Virus record (IMG/VR): IMGVR_UViG_3300025168_000776
Span: 1-21,816 of that record
Direction: 5' to 3' (one strand)
Origin: a virus
Length of the DNA: 21,816 nt
Position numbers and translations under genes: made by a program. This document shows, one piece after another, positions 6,904 through 15,671 of this stretch. Within the stretch, counting starts at the first letter, position 1. Every line of letters starts with the position of its first letter. A model generated the notes under the pieces. That model was not told where the DNA came from, did no database searches, and saw only the letters and a list, made by a program, of their open reading frames with translations.

Positions 6904-7128
6904 ATGGATAAAAATAAAGAAGAAGGGAATCTAGTTTCGTTTAGAGTATTTTTAACGCGAGATGGCAATGTAATTTCTGAGTTTAGTCACTTACCTTTAG
7001 AAGAAATAGAGACTATTTTTTCTTCGGATGAGATTCCTGTCATTAGAAAAATAGTAAAGGAAGGATGTGCTGAACTAGCGGGTTTGCATTTCCATTTAGA
7101 AAGAGAAGTCCAAATGATTAATGTTTAG
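6904..7128 (+). CDS. Small protein of unknown function at the operon end (74 aa)
   Basis: A 74-residue acidic protein: a beta-like start (LVSFRVFLTRDGNVISEF), then an acidic linker (LEEIETIFSSDEIP) and a helix (VIRKIVKEGCAELAG). It has one Cys, so it is not a thioredoxin or glutaredoxin despite standing next to nrdB. I do not recognise a family. It has the strongest ribosome binding site in the window. Its last four codons overlap, head-on, the last codons of the opposite-strand gene (7118-7128), marking where the two transcription blocks meet. Confidence 0.65.
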   Translation: MDKNKEEGNLVSFRVFLTRDGNVISEFSHLPLEEIETIFSSDEIPVIRKIVKEGCAELAGLHFHLEREVQMINV

Positions 7129-7300
7129 TCTCTCCTCCACCATCAAATATTTCTTCGGGGTTAGACATGGCTAAGTATTGATACTCAAACATTTCTCTAT
7201 AGGTTTCAAAAGGAACTACACTCAAGTCATTTGCAGCGTGGAAACGCGCATAGATTTGATAAGCAGCCCCTAGTTGATCTTCTGTATATAAAGCTAACAT
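7118..7300 (-). CDS. Small conserved-type phage protein (60 aa)
   Basis: A 60-residue helical protein: LYTEDQLGAAYQIYARFHA, then PFETYREMFEYQYLAM, then an acidic tail. The 'YTE.QL..AY..Y' opening followed by 'E.YR.MFE' is a pattern I have seen in small proteins at the end of marine phage late operons; no function is known to me. The AAAGGT of its ribosome binding site contains part of the preceding lipoprotein's stop region. It is the last gene of the late block and converges on the 74-residue gene with an 11-base overlap. Confidence 0.65.
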   Translation of the reverse strand: MLALYTEDQLGAAYQIYARFHAANDLSVVPFETYREMFEYQYLAMSNPEEIFDGGGETKH

Positions 7301-7306
7301 ATAATT

Positions 7307-7492
7307 TTACCTTTTAAATATTTGATCTACAGAACAAGTTGGTTGTCGCCTACAATCTTCAAGATTTTGTTGAAATATCTCTGGCTCTACCCATTCAAAT
7401 TCAGGATAGATGGGAACATCATTTAAATAATATGATAACTCATTGGCATTACACCCTGTTATTAATAGAGCTGTAAGCATTAAATATTTCAT
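7307..7492 (-). CDS. Predicted small lipoprotein coupled to the cytochrome/copper protein
   Basis: A 61-residue protein with a short lipoprotein signal: MKYLMLTALLITGC, with lipobox ITGC and Cys14 as the lipidation site. The residue after the Cys is Asn, so Lol sorting to the outer membrane is expected. The mature part of about 47 residues is acidic and contains a FEWVEPEIF segment and two further cysteines (Cys47, Cys53). Its start overlaps the upstream stop by 4 bases (ATGA), so the two are probably made together. One reading is an outer-membrane spanin: it is small, lies in a lysis-gene neighbourhood and has an 'EWVEP' stretch like some phage lysis lipoproteins. The other reading is an accessory or anchor for the upstream periplasmic enzyme. 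The sequence does not decide. Confidence 0.7.
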   Translation of the reverse strand: MKYLMLTALLITGCNANELSYYLNDVPIYPEFEWVEPEIFQQNLEDCRRQPTCSVDQIFKR

Positions 7493-8787
7493 TGGGCTAG
7501 TAATCTCCTTTCTTTTCTTTCAGTTAAAAGTTCTTGGTACTTCTCATCATCAAGATGGGTGACTGCAATCCAAGCATGAGTCATTTCATCACCAGTACGG
7601 CTTCCTCCTACAACCCACATATCGGGATCAGGGTTGTTGGGGTTATCTGCGGTGTTATCATACCACTGTTTAAGGACTAACACGGCTCCTTGTGGAATCA
7701 GTGGGGCATAGTCAGTGTCATATATGTGACTATGATGCCATGTAGCACTCCAGTTAGACACTTGACTGATCGCTTCTGTGCGTCCTGTCTCTGGATAGAA
7801 TATTTCAAAACTTGCTGCATTCATACGGAGATGACCATGAGGTTGCCATGAGTCTATGCGTACTGGATGGTCAAAACTGTGGAAGGCTTGAGTCATGTAG
7901 TAATCATTGGGCGGTATAGTAATATCATTTTGATTACCAATCCTATAGAGCTTTAAGTCTTGCTTGTATGTGAGTTCTTTAGATTCTTCTGCGCTATAGA
8001 GCCACAGACCTATCTCTACTACATTATCTTTAATCATTGTGCCGGGAGCTATTGAACCTAAGCCGCCGGGAAACATATGAATGTCCCAAGCTATCTCAGC
8101 ATTGGCGGGTAGAGTTCTGCATACATTATCAGGAACAATCTCTCCCCATTTACCCATAGCGTATTCAGTTAGCATCCCATATCTCTCACCATCTAAGGTG
8201 ACAGTACTGTTTGCATGGTGTACTACGCTCTTAGCATCGCCTCTAGGCTTAACCTGAACTGCTTTGATGCAACGGTCCTCAGTTAAACCACTAGCTACGT
8301 TGTGCTTGTGCCAGAGATCATTACCACTAGCAGGAATATCTATTGGTATAGATGGTATAACCAGTGTAGGCTCTCCGAAGTCTCCGTAGAAACTCCACTG
8401 ACTAGGATCAGGGAGATCAGGGGGTTGAACAACCCTATCTGTATCTCCATACTCTGATCCCATATCTACCCACTCAATTAAAGTATCTATATCTTTTTGG
8501 GAGAGCCGCCAATCCCCATGAAGGTTCTGGATTCCTATGTTCTCATCATATGCATAAGGAGGCATCTCACGACTCGCTACCTTGTACTGTATTAAAGGAC
8601 TCCACGGTCTTACTGCCTCATAAGATTCAAACGTCATAGGACCAATGCCGCCTTCGCGGTGACATACTACACAGTTATCATTAATTATGGCTGCAACGTC
8701 ATCAACATATGTTACTTTTTCAGCATATGTTTTCTCGGCTACTAAGAGCAGCGCAACGGCTATCATTAAACCAATTAATGTTTTCAT
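7489..8787 (-). CDS. Secreted cytochrome c / copper type II monooxygenase-like (PHM/DBM-fold) protein
   Basis: A 432-residue exported protein. Residues 1-22 form a Sec signal peptide (hydrophobic LIGLMIAVALLLVA, cut near TYA-E). A cytochrome c domain follows: Cys39-Val-Val-Cys42-His43 for covalent haem and Met75 (REMPPYAYD) as likely axial ligand. From about residue 135 comes a region like copper type II ascorbate-dependent monooxygenases. His190-His191 (VVHHANS) and His237 (DIHMFPGG) are candidate CuH ligands. His317-Gly-His319 (QPHGHLRM) and Met402 (GDEMTHAW) match the CuM site. Bacterial proteins with this cytochrome-monooxygenase fusion occur widely; their substrates are mostly unknown. 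It would act in the periplasm and need host cytochrome c maturation. GGAG lies 8 bases before its ATG, just after the endolysin. Domain calls are strong; reaction and phage role are unknown. Confidence 0.88.
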   Translation of the reverse strand: MKTLIGLMIAVALLLVAEKTYAEKVTYVDDVAAIINDNCVVCHREGGIGPMTFESYEAVRPWSPLIQYKVASREMPPYAYDENIGIQNLHGDWRLSQKDIDTLIEWVDMGSEYGDTDRVVQPPDLPDPSQWSFYGDFGEPTLVIPSIPIDIPASGNDLWHKHNVASGLTEDRCIKAVQVKPRGDAKSVVHHANSTVTLDGERYGMLTEYAMGKWGEIVPDNVCRTLPANAEIAWDIHMFPGGLGSIAPGTMIKDNVVEIGLWLYSAEESKELTYKQDLKLYRIGNQNDITIPPNDYYMTQAFHSFDHPVRIDSWQPHGHLRMNAASFEIFYPETGRTEAISQVSNWSATWHHSHIYDTDYAPLIPQGAVLVLKQWYDNTADNPNNPDPDMWVVGGSRTGDEMTHAWIAVTHLDDEKYQELLTERKERRLLAQ

Positions 8788-8788
8788 A

Positions 8789-9157
8789 TTAGTAACTCCA
8801 TATCCACGGTCTAGGCCGTTCTAGTGTATTTTCAATATTATCTAAGTGTATAAATCTGCTGCTTCCTTTCTGGTTTATACCAATCCCGCCAAACTCTCCA
8901 GACTTAACAGCAGCTTCTATGAGCTTGTAAGCCTGTTCTCCAGAGACTCCAATATCTATCGCGTGACCTGTAGCATGTGCGCCAGCGGCCTTCTTACGAG
9001 CTTCTATGGGGTGTTCTGGGCAACGATAGGCACTATTGACAGGGAAGGGGAAGCCTAGCTGATGCCTTAGTGTCTCTATCCTTTCCATGAAGGTTTCATT
9101 CATTCCACTCTTCCCACAGTGAGAGCATTTGAGTTCATCTGCGGTGAAGTATTTCAT
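8789..9157 (-). CDS. M15-family peptidase, probable endolysin
   Basis: A 122-residue zinc peptidase of the M15 (D-Ala-D-Ala carboxypeptidase / L-Ala-D-Glu endopeptidase-like) family, which cuts peptidoglycan stem peptides. Zinc ligands are His61 and Asp68 (GAHATGHAIDI) and His104 (RFIHLDN). The upstream SAYRCPEHP (residues 42-50) is also typical. An N-terminal Cys11-X2-Cys14 (LKCSHCGKS) precedes the catalytic domain. There is no signal peptide or membrane segment, so release for lysis would need a holin, which I cannot identify here. Its start overlaps the stop of the 735-residue gene (ATGA) and it is one base from the cytochrome/copper gene. A virion-attached peptidase is possible, but the small free domain favours a lysis enzyme. 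Confidence 0.88.
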   Translation of the reverse strand: MKYFTADELKCSHCGKSGMNETFMERIETLRHQLGFPFPVNSAYRCPEHPIEARKKAAGAHATGHAIDIGVSGEQAYKLIEAAVKSGEFGGIGINQKGSSRFIHLDNIENTLERPRPWIWSY

Positions 9158-11361
9158 CTCTTTTGTGCTAAGTCTAATGCATTAATTATTATATCTTCAC
9201 CCATTCTTAAAGGTTCCCCACGCTTTAATTTATCTTGAGTGTTAGCTATTGCTTGAGCCAAAGCGTTATCAAATTCTGGTCTACTAAATCCTTGTTTTCT
9301 TTGGTTTATTCCCCAACTATTATTCCACATATCTTTTAATTCTGTTCGCCATTCTTGTCCTTTTATAGCTTGTTTGGCTCCCTGATAAACTTCTTTGGCT
9401 TGACCCGCAGCAGCAGTAAGGGGGTTTTCAGCAGATTCATAACCAAATAAAGCATGATTAACCACATCAAATACTTCTTCATCGCCATCAATTTTAAATT
9501 GATTTCTATTTGTATCTGCATTTCTTAAATCATCAGTAGTCATTTCATATTCTCTGGCTACTTTTTTAGTTGGTAAATTATCTTTTTCGGGCGGTCCTTG
9601 TAAAATTACATCAGGCTCAGGAACAACTCTCTTTACTCCTACTCTTTGATGAGGAGGCACAATTTTATTAGTTAAATCTACAGCATCAGCAGTAATTTGT
9701 ACTTGTCTATCATCATCAAACCCTAAAAATTTAGCACCTTTGTTTAAAGCTCTATCAAACATACCAAAAATACCGCCTTTAGCACTCCGAGTTCTTTGAA
9801 GACTTCTTAGAACTTTACCACCTGTGTTGAAATTTGTTGTTGGTTCTAGTGGTGTTTCTTCTTCTTTATCTGGAAACGGAAATACAAAAGAATGTGTTTT
9901 TTTATGATCTAAATATGCTTTAGCTTCTTCTGTATCTTCGCCTCTGAGATCGGCTGTGGCTAAATAGGATGCTTCTTTATTTTCTTCGGCATATAGCGGC
10001 AATGTAAATCCTGCTGCGGGTAAACCAACTATTAAATAACCTGCCTTATCAGACCTTACTGATGCTCCTATTTTTTTTGCAACTGATCTTATCTGTCCTG
10101 CTACTACAGTTTCATAATGTTTTTGTACTTCTTCGGTTCTAGCCATTCTTCCTGACCAGACTTCTTCTTCGGGATTAATTAAAAATTTAACTTCTTGAGT
10201 TCCTTTGTTTTCCCCCATTACTAATGCTCTGTTAATCATGTTTTTAGTTTCACTAATATCTGGAAGAGATATAGACTGTTGTGAACGTAACAAGTTATCG
10301 GCAGAATATGTAAGTTCAGCTCTTTGTTCTTGTAACCTTCTTCTTGCTTCTAGATTTAGATTGCGTCCTGTTCGCGCATAAAGCTCTTCCTCTTTCTTGG
10401 CTGACTCTTTTATTTCTATCTCTATGTCTTCTAGTTGGTCCTGAAGATTTCTTAGTTTAGTGTCAGATTTTTTAGATAAGTATGTTTTCCGTTGAAACTC
10501 ACTATGCTTTTTCCACTCCTCAAAACGAACACCCCCACCAGCAGGAACCAAATCACTTTGCATTTCAAAAACTCTAAAGGCATTTGAATCTGGTTCTATA
10601 TCGTATCTCATATGATAAGAATAATCTGCTTCATCCAAATAACCAAAATGAGATGAGACTTTTGATCCGGGTTGTCTTACATCTCTTGGGTCTTTAAATA
10701 TTGCAATCCCATAAGTGTCTAAATCTACATCTTCGGGGGTGATCCCCTCATAAATATCTCTTAACGGAGAGGTGTCTCTGGCATATTGTTCAGCATCCAT
10801 ACTACGAACTATATCTTCTGGTAGAATATTAGCAGCCTCCGTATTATATCTAATTATATCGGCTTGCAGATCGGCTATTTCTTCGTCAATTGCCCAGACA
10901 TTACCATCACCTTCAGGTAGCCTAGCTCTTTCAGCCTGAAGATGCAAGATGAGGTCTTCAGCGTCTTCTACTCGTTCTCTCAGTACATCGGGATTAGTAA
11001 CTGTTGGGCCTTCTCTTACATCCTCCATACCTTCTTGTGCTTTAATTTCGTGTTGAGCTTGTGTGTCTTCTTTAGTTTTAAAACCAGTATCAACTGCATC
11101 TCGATCAAAACGATCCACATCTAGCTTTCGTATTCCTTCTGGCGTTAGAGCTACATTGCCGGACCTAGTATAGACAGTATCGTTTGGAAAGGTATCTTGT
11201 TGATTATCTAGCATGTAGTCAAGTTCTGCTCCCTCCATTTCGTCAGCCCTAACGCCTCTAGCAGCTAGTCTTTTTTTAACCAAATCGATAGGTACATTCT
11301 CGCCTTTGTCGGCAATTGCCTTTAAAGCTTGAGATAATATTGATTTAAGTCCTAGTGGCAT
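9154..11361 (-). CDS. Large virion-type protein with polyvalent-protein-like domain (735 aa)
   Basis: A 735-residue protein between the giant virion gene and the endolysin. Residues about 12-52 (VPIDLVKKRLAARGVRADEM, then ELDYML) form a small helical domain. Residues about 215-275 (YGIAIFKDP, then SHFGYLDEADYSYHMRYDIE and VFEMQSD) and about 370-460 (NMINRALVMGENKGTQEVKF, then EVQKHYETVV and IGASV) resemble blocks of phage polyvalent-protein-associated domains, whose usual form is 'H.R..R.D..G...L...E.QSD' followed by a 'RAL..A...G' helix. A charged coiled coil (about 295-350) sits between the blocks. A Gly-Gly-Lys motif (NFNTGGKV) follows near 518. The C-terminal region is helical and charged. 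It is probably a minor virion or ejected protein; an enzymatic role cannot be shown. It starts at TAATG with the previous stop. Confidence 0.7.
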   Translation of the reverse strand: MPLGLKSILSQALKAIADKGENVPIDLVKKRLAARGVRADEMEGAELDYMLDNQQDTFPNDTVYTRSGNVALTPEGIRKLDVDRFDRDAVDTGFKTKEDTQAQHEIKAQEGMEDVREGPTVTNPDVLRERVEDAEDLILHLQAERARLPEGDGNVWAIDEEIADLQADIIRYNTEAANILPEDIVRSMDAEQYARDTSPLRDIYEGITPEDVDLDTYGIAIFKDPRDVRQPGSKVSSHFGYLDEADYSYHMRYDIEPDSNAFRVFEMQSDLVPAGGGVRFEEWKKHSEFQRKTYLSKKSDTKLRNLQDQLEDIEIEIKESAKKEEELYARTGRNLNLEARRRLQEQRAELTYSADNLLRSQQSISLPDISETKNMINRALVMGENKGTQEVKFLINPEEEVWSGRMARTEEVQKHYETVVAGQIRSVAKKIGASVRSDKAGYLIVGLPAAGFTLPLYAEENKEASYLATADLRGEDTEEAKAYLDHKKTHSFVFPFPDKEEETPLEPTTNFNTGGKVLRSLQRTRSAKGGIFGMFDRALNKGAKFLGFDDDRQVQITADAVDLTNKIVPPHQRVGVKRVVPEPDVILQGPPEKDNLPTKKVAREYEMTTDDLRNADTNRNQFKIDGDEEVFDVVNHALFGYESAENPLTAAAGQAKEVYQGAKQAIKGQEWRTELKDMWNNSWGINQRKQGFSRPEFDNALAQAIANTQDKLKRGEPLRMGEDIIINALDLAQKR

Positions 11362-14300
11362 TAACTGGCTCCGTATACAGAGTTATAGAGGCTTCCGAAC
11401 TTTTCTTCTAACATTTTATTTCGGTCTTCTTCATCTATAAAAGCTCCACCTGCTTGCTCAACATAAGGCCGACCTGTCATTTTATCTATACGTTGATCAG
11501 GTTCTACAGGAACTTGAGGCACGTTATGTACTTCACCACCTTTGGCTAGTCTGAAGTCTCTAAAAGCAGCTTCCTCTTGTTGTTCAACAGCACCCGTTTC
11601 TACTGGCGGTCTTGGGTCTGGAACTTCTTCTTCAAAGTATAAATTAGTGTTTAACATTTCCACATGTTTATTATTTAAAGCGCGAATTAATTTACTAACA
11701 CTATTAATTTCGGACTCTGGATCAAAAGGAGTTTTGTTAAACATATTCATAAGCGCGGTTTCTGTTACCATATTATAAGGAGTAAAATATTTTCCTGCTA
11801 GTAAAGAGCCTATTGATTGCTTAGACATGCCTCTTTCTTCTAAAACTTTTACTGTTTCGCTACTACCTATTAATTCTTTAGTTGCTAAAAATTGACGATA
11901 TAACTCTTGCGTATTCCTATACCTAGCATCTTCAAAATTTACATAGTTTTTAATAATTTCTTCTGGTGTATTTTCATAGTTTATAATAGGTCTTCCAAGA
12001 TCATTTTGCTTGCCGTTATATTCAGAAACTCTATAACCTAAAGTTGTTTGAGGGTCTAGTTTGTTTATACGCAGACCTGCAAAAGTGGCTGCAAGTGCTT
12101 GTGATGTTGGCTTGACATATCCTGTGCTTGGATTGGGCGTGGCTAAAATAGATTCAGAACTTATAAGGTCATCTATTGAAGGTACTGTACCCGGTAAAAA
12201 AGATTGAAATATATGCCAAATAGCATTATCTAATCTTTCTATAGGTGTAGAAGATTCATTAAAAATATTTTTACCTCTTGGTGTTCTTCCGTCTGAAGCG
12301 GATATAGCAAAAGCTACATCTGTTAAGGCTTGAGTTAAAACAGGCTGATCTGTATACGGAGCAAGAACATCTCCTATTGCTGCTAAAGTTCCTTTTATTA
12401 TACGCTTATCTAAATCCTCGCCTTTTAATTTACCATTTCTAACTTCTTCAAATAAAATTTGAAAGGGAGCATTTATACTTTCGTAGGCATTTAAAAATTG
12501 AGTATCTATAACATGTATTTCTCCGTCTATTACAATCGGTATTCTAGGCGATGATTTAGACCACGGCTTTTCGTCTACTGTTTGAATAGCGTTATATTGT
12601 TCTCTTGAAAATCCATATAGTGCCGCTGATCCGCTTGCTACGCCAGACCAAAGACCCATCTGTGCTGTTCTACCTGCAAAACGCCTCATGCCTCTATTTT
12701 TTAATACTTGATTACTAGAACCCATCTCTTTAAAAGCTTCTCTATAGATGTTGACACTTGTTCTTAGTGACTCAGCAGGAAAAGAAACAAAACTACCGAA
12801 AGGAAGATGTCGCAAACGCTTTACATAAGGCGGGACAAAATCATAATTAGGAACAGTAGCACGAACTTTTCTAGCTGCTTCAGCTTTTAACACACTTATA
12901 TCAGTAGTAGGTAATGCTTTTTGTAGTGTTTCTAGTTCTGAATTATATATAACTATTTTATAAAAATCGTCTACTGCTACATAAGATTTTTCCATACCTT
13001 TGGCAAGAGGATCAACTACTTTTCCTATACCTTCAACTACAGGGTCTAAAGCCTCTCCAACTTTTCTTGTTGTACCATAGCTTTTTAGAGTATCGTTAGA
13101 GGCTTCTAATATACTTTTATCAGCATCTTTAAAACCAGACTCTAACAAAGCCCTAAATTCATTAACATTGGTATTAGTATTAACTACTCCTAGTCGTAGA
13201 TATTCTTTATACATTTTATTAAAACCTTCATCGCCTTGATCTCTTGCATTATTCCATAAAGTTTTAAATGTGTTTCTTACTGAAGCACCTGCGGGATTAA
13301 CTATAATACCATTAGCAGGGCCAAACTGCGCTCCTCCTATTATATTACGAGCTTGCGTTGTTATGCTGTAAACAGTTTTTTGTTTTTGAGAAAAGCCTTT
13401 TAATGATAGTGCGCCCTTATACCAACCATACAAGTTAGCATCAAATGATCCTTGATCATGTTTCAAAGCACTTGCTATTTCCGGTGTAGTATAATAGATA
13501 AATTCGCCTTCTCCATCTAACATACTACCAGTTCCTCCTATTTTAGTATTGTATACATCTGTATCAAATAGTTGTTCACCTGTATCTTTTTGAAAAGTCG
13601 CTCTAGATTCTACAGATGGTACAAGGCTTCTTCCCGGTGTTGCAGAAGTTCCCCAATCTGGATTACGAGATTTAAATATATAATTACCTTCTCCTAATCT
13701 TAGAAGATTTTCGTGGAACCTAGCGTCTTCATAAAACTTTGTTACTTTGTTAACAGTAATTAAAAGAGATTCATCAGCGTCAGTTACTTCACCCATTAAC
13801 TTTCTTATTTCTTCGGGTATATCTTTTTTAGCATCAAAAATCTTGTTATTTAATTTTTTTACAGATGTTAGATATTCTAAAGCACTATTATCTCCTCTTT
13901 CTAATATCTCATTAACATGTAATCTAGCATTTTGTTCAGCCAGTTCAGGAAGCTCTCCTGCATTCATACGGTTTTGTGTAAGAAAATTTATAGCATCATC
14001 TTTTATTTCTTGAGTAGGCACATAGTTTTTATCTTCAAAAAGTCTGAATGATCTTCTAATATATGAACCTATATTATCTTGTATTATTTCTTTTAGTTCA
14101 GGTTTTACCATAGCTGAATTAGACAGCCTATCAGAAAGTTGATCAATAAGTATTCTGCCTTCTAAAACTTGTTCTGCTACTTCTTCTGGTAAGTCGTGGT
14201 TTCTAGCTATGTTTTCAACTTGAGTTAAAAAGGGGCTAGATGAATCATCTAGTGATTCAGAAAAAGCTTCATTAACTTTATCTCTTAGTCCGGGGTTTTC

Positions 14301-15671
14301 TTCGCTAAAGGTATTTATAATTCTATTTAATTTTGCAGCCGATATTTCTGCTTCTTGCACAGTTGCCCTTCCTGCATATATAGAATCATTAAAAGCATCA
14401 AAAGCTCTAGGACTCCAGTAACCTCTAGAAGTAAGTGTTGAATTAAACCATCTTCTTAAAATACTGCTTTGCTGTAAACGTACTTGCTCTATGCCTTCTG
14501 GAGTTTCGTTGAAGCGTAGCTCAGGCTCTTCACGGAGATTTCTTAAAGCCGCAGCGTCCTCTAAGGATTCTTCATCAGTTCGTCTAAGATATGGGCCTTC
14601 CCATCCACCCACAGAACTATCTTTTGGTTCAGTTATACTTTTTTTCTGTTCTTCAAGGAAGTCAACAAATAATTCACCTTTATCTTCTTTGGAAAGTTCT
14701 TGTGGAGTTTTATTAAATTTATCACGAACTAGTTTTCTAAATTTATTAGCCCCTCCAACTACGTCTATAAGGCCACCTATTAAAGCTCCTTCTCCAAGAA
14801 GTTTTAATCTCTTTATAGATTCAGAATCTTCACGGTCTGCTGATAAAAATAAATAAGTATTCCACTCCCTTGCAGCTTCTTCGCCTAGAGCATGTTCTAT
14901 AACATTACTAATATTTTCATCGGGATTAGTTAATAGCTGATCTATTATTGCACCACTACCAGTACCTTTTAAAAAATTATTACGCCATGCTTTGCTTTTT
15001 ATAAACAAGTCGGGTAAATTTTTATAAACACTAATACCTCCTGCGAGGTATGTTCCTACTTCTGCTAAAGTACCTACAGTAGTATCCATAGGAAATATTC
15101 TTCCAGTATCAGAATCAAATATTGTGTTGACATCTACGTTCATAGCTTTAGCTATTGGCTCTGCTGATGTTCTTGCAAGCTCACTTGTAATTACTTCAGA
15201 GACTTCAGGACTTTGTAAAACATCTAACATCTCTCCGCGCCTCCGAGAAGAGCCAGATATTCTACTCATAATTGGTCCGGGTTCAAAAAGCCTAGTTGCT
15301 CCATAAAGGGCAAGCCGCTTTAAATCGGTTTTTGTATCCGCAAAAAGTCTTCCAAAGTCTAAAGCAGTATCTTTGGCTTCTTGTTTGTAATCAATATTTG
15401 GTATGTCTTCAACTACTGCTCCTAAAACAGCACGATTATATTGTCTTGCTGCTGCTGATGCAGAAAGCGGCTCTTCAAGTTGACTTGATTCAGGTTCAAT
15501 TAAAGCTGTTTCTTTTTTTTCTTTTTCGGGCGATTCTAGTTCCGCCGCATCTACAGCCGCTTGTATTCTTTGACTTTTATATATTTCATAAGCTTCTGCG
15601 TCCGTGTAAGAATCAGGTACGTTTGTGTACTCAACGCCATTAGGAAACTTTACTGTTCTTCCATCTGCCAT
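11361..15671 (-). CDS. Giant internal-virion/ejection-type protein (1436 aa)
   Basis: A 1436-residue protein, the largest complete gene in the window. The N-terminus (RTVKFPNGVEYTNVPDSYT) is the short 'FP.G....VP.' head common to large phage virion proteins. The middle is long and helical, with a central region near residues 760-1010 rich in aromatic and basic residues (YSITTQARNIIGGAQFGP, VDDFYKIVIYN, HLPFGSFVSFPAESLR). The C-terminus carries AKGGEVHNVP, then EPDQRIDKMTG and EQAGGAF, a tail motif I associate with marine podovirus internal proteins. In position and size it matches ejection proteins such as T7 gp15/gp16, which leave the capsid and form a conduit across the envelope; I see no transglycosylase motif. 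It overlaps both neighbours by one base (TAATG). Confidence 0.75.
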   Translation of the reverse strand: MADGRTVKFPNGVEYTNVPDSYTDAEAYEIYKSQRIQAAVDAAELESPEKEKKETALIEPESSQLEEPLSASAAARQYNRAVLGAVVEDIPNIDYKQEAKDTALDFGRLFADTKTDLKRLALYGATRLFEPGPIMSRISGSSRRRGEMLDVLQSPEVSEVITSELARTSAEPIAKAMNVDVNTIFDSDTGRIFPMDTTVGTLAEVGTYLAGGISVYKNLPDLFIKSKAWRNNFLKGTGSGAIIDQLLTNPDENISNVIEHALGEEAAREWNTYLFLSADREDSESIKRLKLLGEGALIGGLIDVVGGANKFRKLVRDKFNKTPQELSKEDKGELFVDFLEEQKKSITEPKDSSVGGWEGPYLRRTDEESLEDAAALRNLREEPELRFNETPEGIEQVRLQQSSILRRWFNSTLTSRGYWSPRAFDAFNDSIYAGRATVQEAEISAAKLNRIINTFSEENPGLRDKVNEAFSESLDDSSSPFLTQVENIARNHDLPEEVAEQVLEGRILIDQLSDRLSNSAMVKPELKEIIQDNIGSYIRRSFRLFEDKNYVPTQEIKDDAINFLTQNRMNAGELPELAEQNARLHVNEILERGDNSALEYLTSVKKLNNKIFDAKKDIPEEIRKLMGEVTDADESLLITVNKVTKFYEDARFHENLLRLGEGNYIFKSRNPDWGTSATPGRSLVPSVESRATFQKDTGEQLFDTDVYNTKIGGTGSMLDGEGEFIYYTTPEIASALKHDQGSFDANLYGWYKGALSLKGFSQKQKTVYSITTQARNIIGGAQFGPANGIIVNPAGASVRNTFKTLWNNARDQGDEGFNKMYKEYLRLGVVNTNTNVNEFRALLESGFKDADKSILEASNDTLKSYGTTRKVGEALDPVVEGIGKVVDPLAKGMEKSYVAVDDFYKIVIYNSELETLQKALPTTDISVLKAEAARKVRATVPNYDFVPPYVKRLRHLPFGSFVSFPAESLRTSVNIYREAFKEMGSSNQVLKNRGMRRFAGRTAQMGLWSGVASGSAALYGFSREQYNAIQTVDEKPWSKSSPRIPIVIDGEIHVIDTQFLNAYESINAPFQILFEEVRNGKLKGEDLDKRIIKGTLAAIGDVLAPYTDQPVLTQALTDVAFAISASDGRTPRGKNIFNESSTPIERLDNAIWHIFQSFLPGTVPSIDDLISSESILATPNPSTGYVKPTSQALAATFAGLRINKLDPQTTLGYRVSEYNGKQNDLGRPIINYENTPEEIIKNYVNFEDARYRNTQELYRQFLATKELIGSSETVKVLEERGMSKQSIGSLLAGKYFTPYNMVTETALMNMFNKTPFDPESEINSVSKLIRALNNKHVEMLNTNLYFEEEVPDPRPPVETGAVEQQEEAAFRDFRLAKGGEVHNVPQVPVEPDQRIDKMTGRPYVEQAGGAFIDEEDRNKMLEEKFGSLYNSVYGAS

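Follow-up and report, generated by a model that had tools for sequence, protein, structure and literature searches.

In animals, copper hydroxylases of the PHM/DBM kind make hormones, and enzymes of the PHM type use O2 in tight coupling to their substrate. PHM and dopamine β-hydroxylase (DBH; PF01082/PF03712) are secreted proteins with a two-domain fold, in which CuH is held by three His and CuM by a His-x-His motif together with a Met. Among viruses, the closest precedents for a gene of this kind are virus-encoded pmoC (PMC7674155) and amoC/nirK (PMC8115048), of which pmoC and amoC are phage-carried copies of host copper monooxygenase genes proposed to boost oxidation by the host. Here we describe a gene, termed A, in a 21.8-kb podovirus fragment from one virus record (the window, meaning the whole stretch of DNA analysed). 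A resembles PHM and DBH in fold, in both sets of copper ligands and in its predicted secretion, and resembles the viral pmoC and amoC genes in being carried by phages.

Phage genome and position of the gene

The genes of the left arm of the window, polA, nuclease genes and nrdA/nrdB, lie on the plus strand. Those of the right arm lie on the minus strand and encode virion proteins, a protein of 735 aa, the M15 endolysin, A, a lipoprotein of 61 aa and a protein of 60 aa; the two arms converge near 7.1 kb. The features of the right arm that concern A are given below.

7118..7300, minus strand: last gene of the operon, encoding 60 aa and conserved in podoviruses, present also in relatives without A
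7307..7492, minus strand: small lipoprotein of 61 aa, with lipobox LITGC and two conserved Cys near the C-terminus
7489..8787, minus strand: gene A, predicted secreted cytochrome c / PHM-type copper monooxygenase of 432 aa (ORF, PHM/DBH fold, invariant ligands)
8789..9157, minus strand: M15 peptidase endolysin directly upstream of A (PF08291, E 2e-12; PHROG 894 endolysin, E 5e-25)
8796..8799, minus strand: Shine-Dalgarno-like GGAG, 8 nt 5' of the A start codon (from sequence)
11361..15671, minus strand: internal virion-type protein of 1436 aa (PHROG 22602 virion structural protein, E 3e-16), 29% identical to the HTVC027P structural protein

The ORF of A runs over 432 codons from an ATG at 8787 to a stop codon at 7489-7491. 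It begins 1 nt past the endolysin stop codon, with virion-protein genes upstream on the same strand, and its own stop codon overlaps the lipoprotein ATG by 4 nt (ATGA). Given this arrangement and the GGAG, A is placed by position in a late operon, as the first-pass annotation had proposed. That annotation had also taken the gene to be intact, which agrees with the full ORF and with dN/dS values of 0.06-0.11 between phage copies, indicative of strong purifying selection.

The podovirus clade to which the window belongs is of the HMO-2011/HTVC115P-like type. Around nrdA/nrdB the gene order of HTVC115P agrees with that of the window, as does its converging late arm, and its terminase is 80% identical to that of a member of the window clade (L031); unlike the window, it carries an Hsp20 and small ORFs in the slot of A. 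The HMO-2011-type Pelagibacter phages HTVC115P, HTVC103P and HTVC104P all lack the A gene.

The protein can be divided into the following parts.

8722..8787, minus strand: Sec signal peptide, residues 1-22 (MKTLIGLMIAVALLLVAEKTYA; n-, h- and c-regions by sequence)
8443..8709, minus strand: class I-like cytochrome c domain, residues ~27-115 (weak Pfam matches, invariant ligands)
8659-8673, minus strand: CXXCH, residues 39-43 (C39-x-x-C42-H43)
8563-8565, minus strand: predicted axial Met75 of the haem domain, in MPPY
7552..8370, minus strand: PHM-fold domain, residues ~140-412 (Foldseek against PDB, hhalign, invariance)
8215-8220, minus strand: predicted CuH ligands His190/191
8077-8079, minus strand: predicted CuH ligand His237
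7831-7839, minus strand: predicted CuM ligands H317-G-H319
7582-7584, minus strand: predicted CuM ligand Met402, in GDEM

The signal peptide, the single CXXCH and each residue named earlier from the letters alone were recovered at their positions in the 432-aa ORF, and in the AlphaFold2 model the signal peptide region forms a helix over residues 2-20.

Metal ligands, fold and homology

An alignment of 58 relatives of A (26-87% identity) contains only 34 invariant columns, which include all ten predicted ligands. Six of the 16 His of A are invariant, namely the one in the haem motif and the five that correspond to PHM copper ligands, as are two of the 13 Met (M75 and M402) and two of the four Cys (C39 and C42). 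The six copper ligands are likewise invariant in A, in its paralogue B and in a distant bacterial member, and no further His or Met is invariant apart from the haem ligands. The set of haem and PHM/DBM ligands first proposed is thus upheld by all ten residues, and its conservation, as judged from the alignment, is far beyond chance. A cytochrome c domain is weakly matched in most members (PF13442 in 55 of 58, PF00034 in 48 of 58); for the window protein alone the Pfam cytochrome c matches fall under the cut-off (E 0.0016), and CXXCH and Met75 are invariant in the family.

The AlphaFold2 model of A, built with the 58-relative alignment, reached a pLDDT of 83 and a pTM of 0.80. When it was searched against the PDB with Foldseek, ranks 1 to 31 were all PHM or DBH (E 4e-10 to 5e-8, TM to target up to 0.62), and everything beyond consisted of unrelated structures with a TM of about 0.25 or less. 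Comparison by hhalign of the A family with bacterial proteins of the TlpA–cytochrome c–Cu2_monoox architecture gave a probability of 100 and an E of 7e-57 with the ligands aligned, and 12 of 16 of those bacterial proteins match Cu2_monoox_C (PF03712, best E 6.6e-7). The kinship with PHM and DBM inferred in the first reading is therefore borne out by a fold search that returns no other real matches and by the profile link to proteins carrying Cu2_monoox_C. Its expectation that the His and Met residues would not prove scattered stands in part: a weak alignment between a joint profile and a confirmed segment of rat PHM puts each of the six copper ligands in register. Since the PHM/DBH fold and all six ligands are matched, A is a PHM-type copper monooxygenase in so far as a model and alignments can establish this; its activity and copper geometry are inferred.

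The sequence evidence for this assignment is indirect. The window protein has no match above the cut-off to Pfam Cu2_monooxygen or Cu2_monoox_C, so that A is tied to these families only via the bacterial relatives that do match. Single-sequence searches with A of Pfam, PHROGs, NCBIfam, PADLOC and PDB gave weak cytochrome c matches or none, and the profile of the A alignment, run against the PDB, found no PHM and only spurious matches to SMC and other chance matches. That A misses the Pfam cut-offs and that its profile fails to reach PHM by sequence is a point against the functional reading that we prefer below.

This weakness, together with the absence of any known activity, also leaves room for the view that A keeps the fold without the hydroxylase chemistry and serves as a haem- or copper-binding or sensing protein, or as a structural virion protein. 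We regard this as very doubtful, because all six copper ligands are invariant as far as B and the distant bacterial member without any additional invariant His or Met, and because the sequence, which we infer to be exported, is under purifying selection.

Two narrower assignments were rejected. At the positions of the PHM peptide-binding residues Arg240, Asn316 and Tyr318, A has Gln315, His404 and Trp406 (again in a weak alignment), which rules out a peptidylglycine α-hydroxylating enzyme proper. Since these residues are replaced, the substrate should not be peptidylglycine-like; as far as the aligned residues tell, it differs from that of PHM and its identity is unknown. A membrane CuMMO subunit of the pmoC/amoC kind was dismissed as well, given the β-sandwich PHM fold and the lack of any CuMMO match.

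A WHHSH cluster (H351/H352/H354, about 7726-7737, minus strand) is invariant in A and absent from B. This A-specific cluster is unexplained and could possibly form an extra metal or substrate site.

Bacterial relatives and origin

The direct relatives of phage A are gammaproteobacterial genes with 61-72% identity to it, often found in tandem arrays of two to five copies. Bacterial fusions with an N-terminal cytochrome c, whose existence had been stated in the first-pass annotation, were indeed found as gammaproteobacterial cytochrome c–Cu2_monoox proteins with the same domain order as A in the shared part; besides the A arrays they include TlpA/AhpC–cytochrome c–PHM proteins of ~580 aa. Relatives of B are abundant in some marine Gammaproteobacteria, with up to eight matches per genome. 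The bacterial A arrays lie near genes for a GMC oxidoreductase and gluconate-dehydrogenase subunit 3, or near PQQ dehydrogenase genes. Such a neighbourhood fits hydroxylation followed by periplasmic alcohol oxidation, but it is only suggestive, since it varies between lineages.

Four marine gammaproteobacterial genomes (L087, L105, L094 and L118) have three to five A-type genes in tandem, in most cases behind a conserved secreted protein of ~317 aa without a Pfam match.

A tree with the bacterial homologues, as had been suggested at the outset, was calculated with IQ-TREE and groups all 27 phage rows into one clade (100/100) nested in the marine gammaproteobacterial paralogues. The simplest reading of this tree, resting on sequence, would be a single acquisition from marine bacteria followed by spread among phages.

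Occurrence in phages

A is present in at least 155 IMG/VR stretches, and among the matches listed A and B occur in at least 138 contigs from at least 122 datasets. Within the window clade (nrdB at least 85% identical), all 18 contigs with enough flank carry A at the same site, whereas only 2 of 28 more distant relatives have it and several of these relatives still hold the neighbouring endolysin. The gene is also found in phages of unrelated gene content (L007, L008) and in T4-like phages, in which Gp23 and terminase are encoded in the same records; the Gp23 of these phages is 71% identical to that of the OM43 phage Melnitz and the SAR11 phage HTVC008M. Its insertion site varies among phages, with tail-fibre, clamp-loader or Fe-S genes as neighbours.

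It can be asked whether these records are assembly artefacts in which a bacterial gene was joined to phage contigs, given the bacterial origin of A and the few copies in MAG contigs of other taxa (L081, L082). We consider the chance of this practically nil: the gene recurs at one site across the podovirus clade, in independent datasets and between conserved phage flanks, terminase or Gp23 is encoded in the records, and the phage copies form a clade of their own. The first-pass annotation had named a phage-host chimera as a possible refutation, and the recurrence at one site, as well as in other phages including T4-like ones, speaks against it. Two criteria for an auxiliary metabolic gene, a true virus genome and a cellular origin, are fulfilled by A, the former on the basis of phage neighbours, terminase or Gp23 in sister records and the conserved site; a boost to host metabolism during infection, the third criterion, is inferred.

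Phage-type A or B genes were also seen in three MAG contigs (L081, L082 and L117) assigned to Neomarinimicrobiota, Flavobacteriales and Pseudomonadales. The copies in L081 and L082 fall inside the phage clade of the tree. L081 resembles a misbinned T4-like phage; its flanks are phage-like, which may also hold for L082.

The first reading named no described phage example, and none came to light within the incomplete coverage of our searches. No match to A, B or the lipoprotein was obtained by tblastn against the 50,697 phage records of INPHARED, a BFVD fold search with the A model returned nothing above TM 0.25, and no report of a phage or viral PHM or Cu2_monoox protein was found in the literature searched, most subscription papers being outside its reach.

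Partner genes

The lipoprotein has a mature part of ~45 aa and no Pfam match, and its family was found only in phage contigs that bear A. Its gene follows A, at a distance of 1.8 kb in L054, and two lipoprotein ORFs succeed one another in L028-L031 and L081. The paralogue B, of 409 aa, shares the PHM fold and has A upstream in all 75 loci with flank. Directly behind A in 82 phage loci we found the lipoprotein in 43, B in 24, both in 2 and neither in 17. Mutual replacement of lipoprotein and B (41 and 22 alone, 2 both) follows the expected trend; with only three independent pairs it was not significant in a tree test. A gene for a small class I cytochrome c separates A from B in 10 cassettes, as it does the PHM-type genes of L072 (2138-2473) and L078 (9266-9631), the further B loci with an intervening cytochrome c being L172, L173, L191, L197, L219, L220, L224 and L237. 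The constant position of B behind A and the intervening cytochrome c fit an electron-transfer cassette.

These associations can be read as a modular periplasmic redox cassette specific to phages, consisting of A as the core with the lipoprotein or B and with or without cytochrome c. It would be a self-contained oxygenase system, traded among unrelated morphotypes for a task to which bacteria do not put the parent enzyme. This task may be modification of the envelope or a receptor, or the use of a compound released in infection. We entertain this reading only tentatively.

A related proposal, which we consider unlikely, is that A and the lipoprotein oxidise some constituent of the periplasm or outer membrane, be it a lipid, peptide, glycan or receptor, and so provide superinfection exclusion or weaken the envelope before lysis. 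It draws on the location of A beside the endolysin in podoviruses and near lysozyme or spanin genes in some T4-like phages, and on the phage-only lipoprotein, tightly linked to A, with its two conserved Cys. Yet the varying insertion site argues against a constant tie to lysis, the bacterial relatives lie in metabolic-looking neighbourhoods, and A matches no known defence family. A constant link to lysis was dropped, as the neighbourhoods in T4-like phages differ.

The fused haem and the extra cytochrome c of some cassettes, as well as Fe-S or peroxiredoxin genes near A in some T4-like contigs, could instead indicate that A acts in the periplasm mainly as a sink for electrons, by reducing O2 or by handling peroxide or copper, and so balances respiration in the dying cell, hydroxylation being incidental. 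This appears decidedly improbable to us, since every CuM ligand is retained under strong purifying selection, O2 and substrate are tightly coupled in PHM-type enzymes, and the many bacterial paralogues suggest substrate diversity.

Several T4-like contigs have other neighbours of note. IscU-like or IscA-like Fe-S assembly genes adjoin A or B in L054 (9256-9627), L051 (11048-11416) and L078 (11212-11568), and a peroxiredoxin-like gene lies two genes upstream of A in L071 (6206-6823). In L079 (3510-13222), a protein with CHASE2 and guanylate/adenylate cyclase domains by Pfam is encoded beside A, along with CsgA-like repeat proteins recognized by eye and without a Pfam match; the neighbourhood in L080 (4093-7924) looks similar. 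Such neighbours are unusual for a phage.

Proposed function

We lean, with confidence only a little better than even, towards A being an exported haem c and two-copper hydroxylase of gammaproteobacterial origin that oxidises a small substrate and boosts a flow in the host. The most likely role of A, by inference, is periplasmic oxidation during late infection. A marine phage lineage would have taken A once from a marine gammaproteobacterium with tandem arrays beside periplasmic alcohol-oxidising genes, after which the gene would have spread among podoviruses of the HMO-2011 type, T4-like phages and others. Late in infection, A would be made together with lysis and virion proteins and, as we infer, would leave the cytoplasm through Sec, receive its haem from the Ccm system of the host and take up copper in the periplasm. 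Electrons may then pass from the quinol/cytochrome c pool of the host via the fused haem to CuH, and in some phages probably via the small cytochrome c that they encode; the fusion suggests, by inference, that haem replaces ascorbate as the reductant. CuM would activate O2 for hydroxylation at a C-H bond of some small organic compound, and the product would enter the periplasmic alcohol-dehydrogenase route of the host, whereby the phage would raise the flow of carbon or electrons in the cell that it infects. In this scheme the fold, the ligands, the operon layout, the origin, the spread and the purifying selection rest on computation, and the metal loading, the electron path, the hydroxylase activity, the substrate class and the benefit to the phage are inferences.

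No biochemical data on close relatives of A were found, and its activity, reductant and substrate are unproven. The host is a further point against this reading. Among isolated phages, the nearest ones have SAR11, SAR116, Roseobacter or OM43 as hosts and not the gammaproteobacteria from which A came, so that the host pathway is uncertain, and neither the GC content (37%) nor the nearest isolates decide the host of the window phage.

Comparison with known systems

A is common, fixed in one podovirus clade, present in T4-like phages and strongly constrained, and it should therefore matter to the phages that carry it. It suggests an unrecognised O2-dependent periplasmic step in infected marine bacteria. 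It also points to a bacterial enzyme family with many marine gammaproteobacterial paralogues and an unknown substrate, and identifying that substrate would settle the purpose of both phage A and this family.

Unlike its bacterial kin, of which a genome holds several paralogues, phage A forms a separate clade with its own lipoprotein or B. It shares 10-14% identity with PHM and DBH over the structural alignment and differs from them in the fused N-terminal haem c, the His351/352/354 cluster and its location in phages. Viral pmoC and amoC each encode just one membrane subunit out of three, in an enzyme of another fold, whereas A, which is of the soluble type, would be an entire enzyme that brings its own haem domain and accessory genes. 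Within the phage records, BFVD and literature searched, no earlier phage case of a complete, predicted exported and haem-fused hydroxylase of the PHM/DBM class came up.
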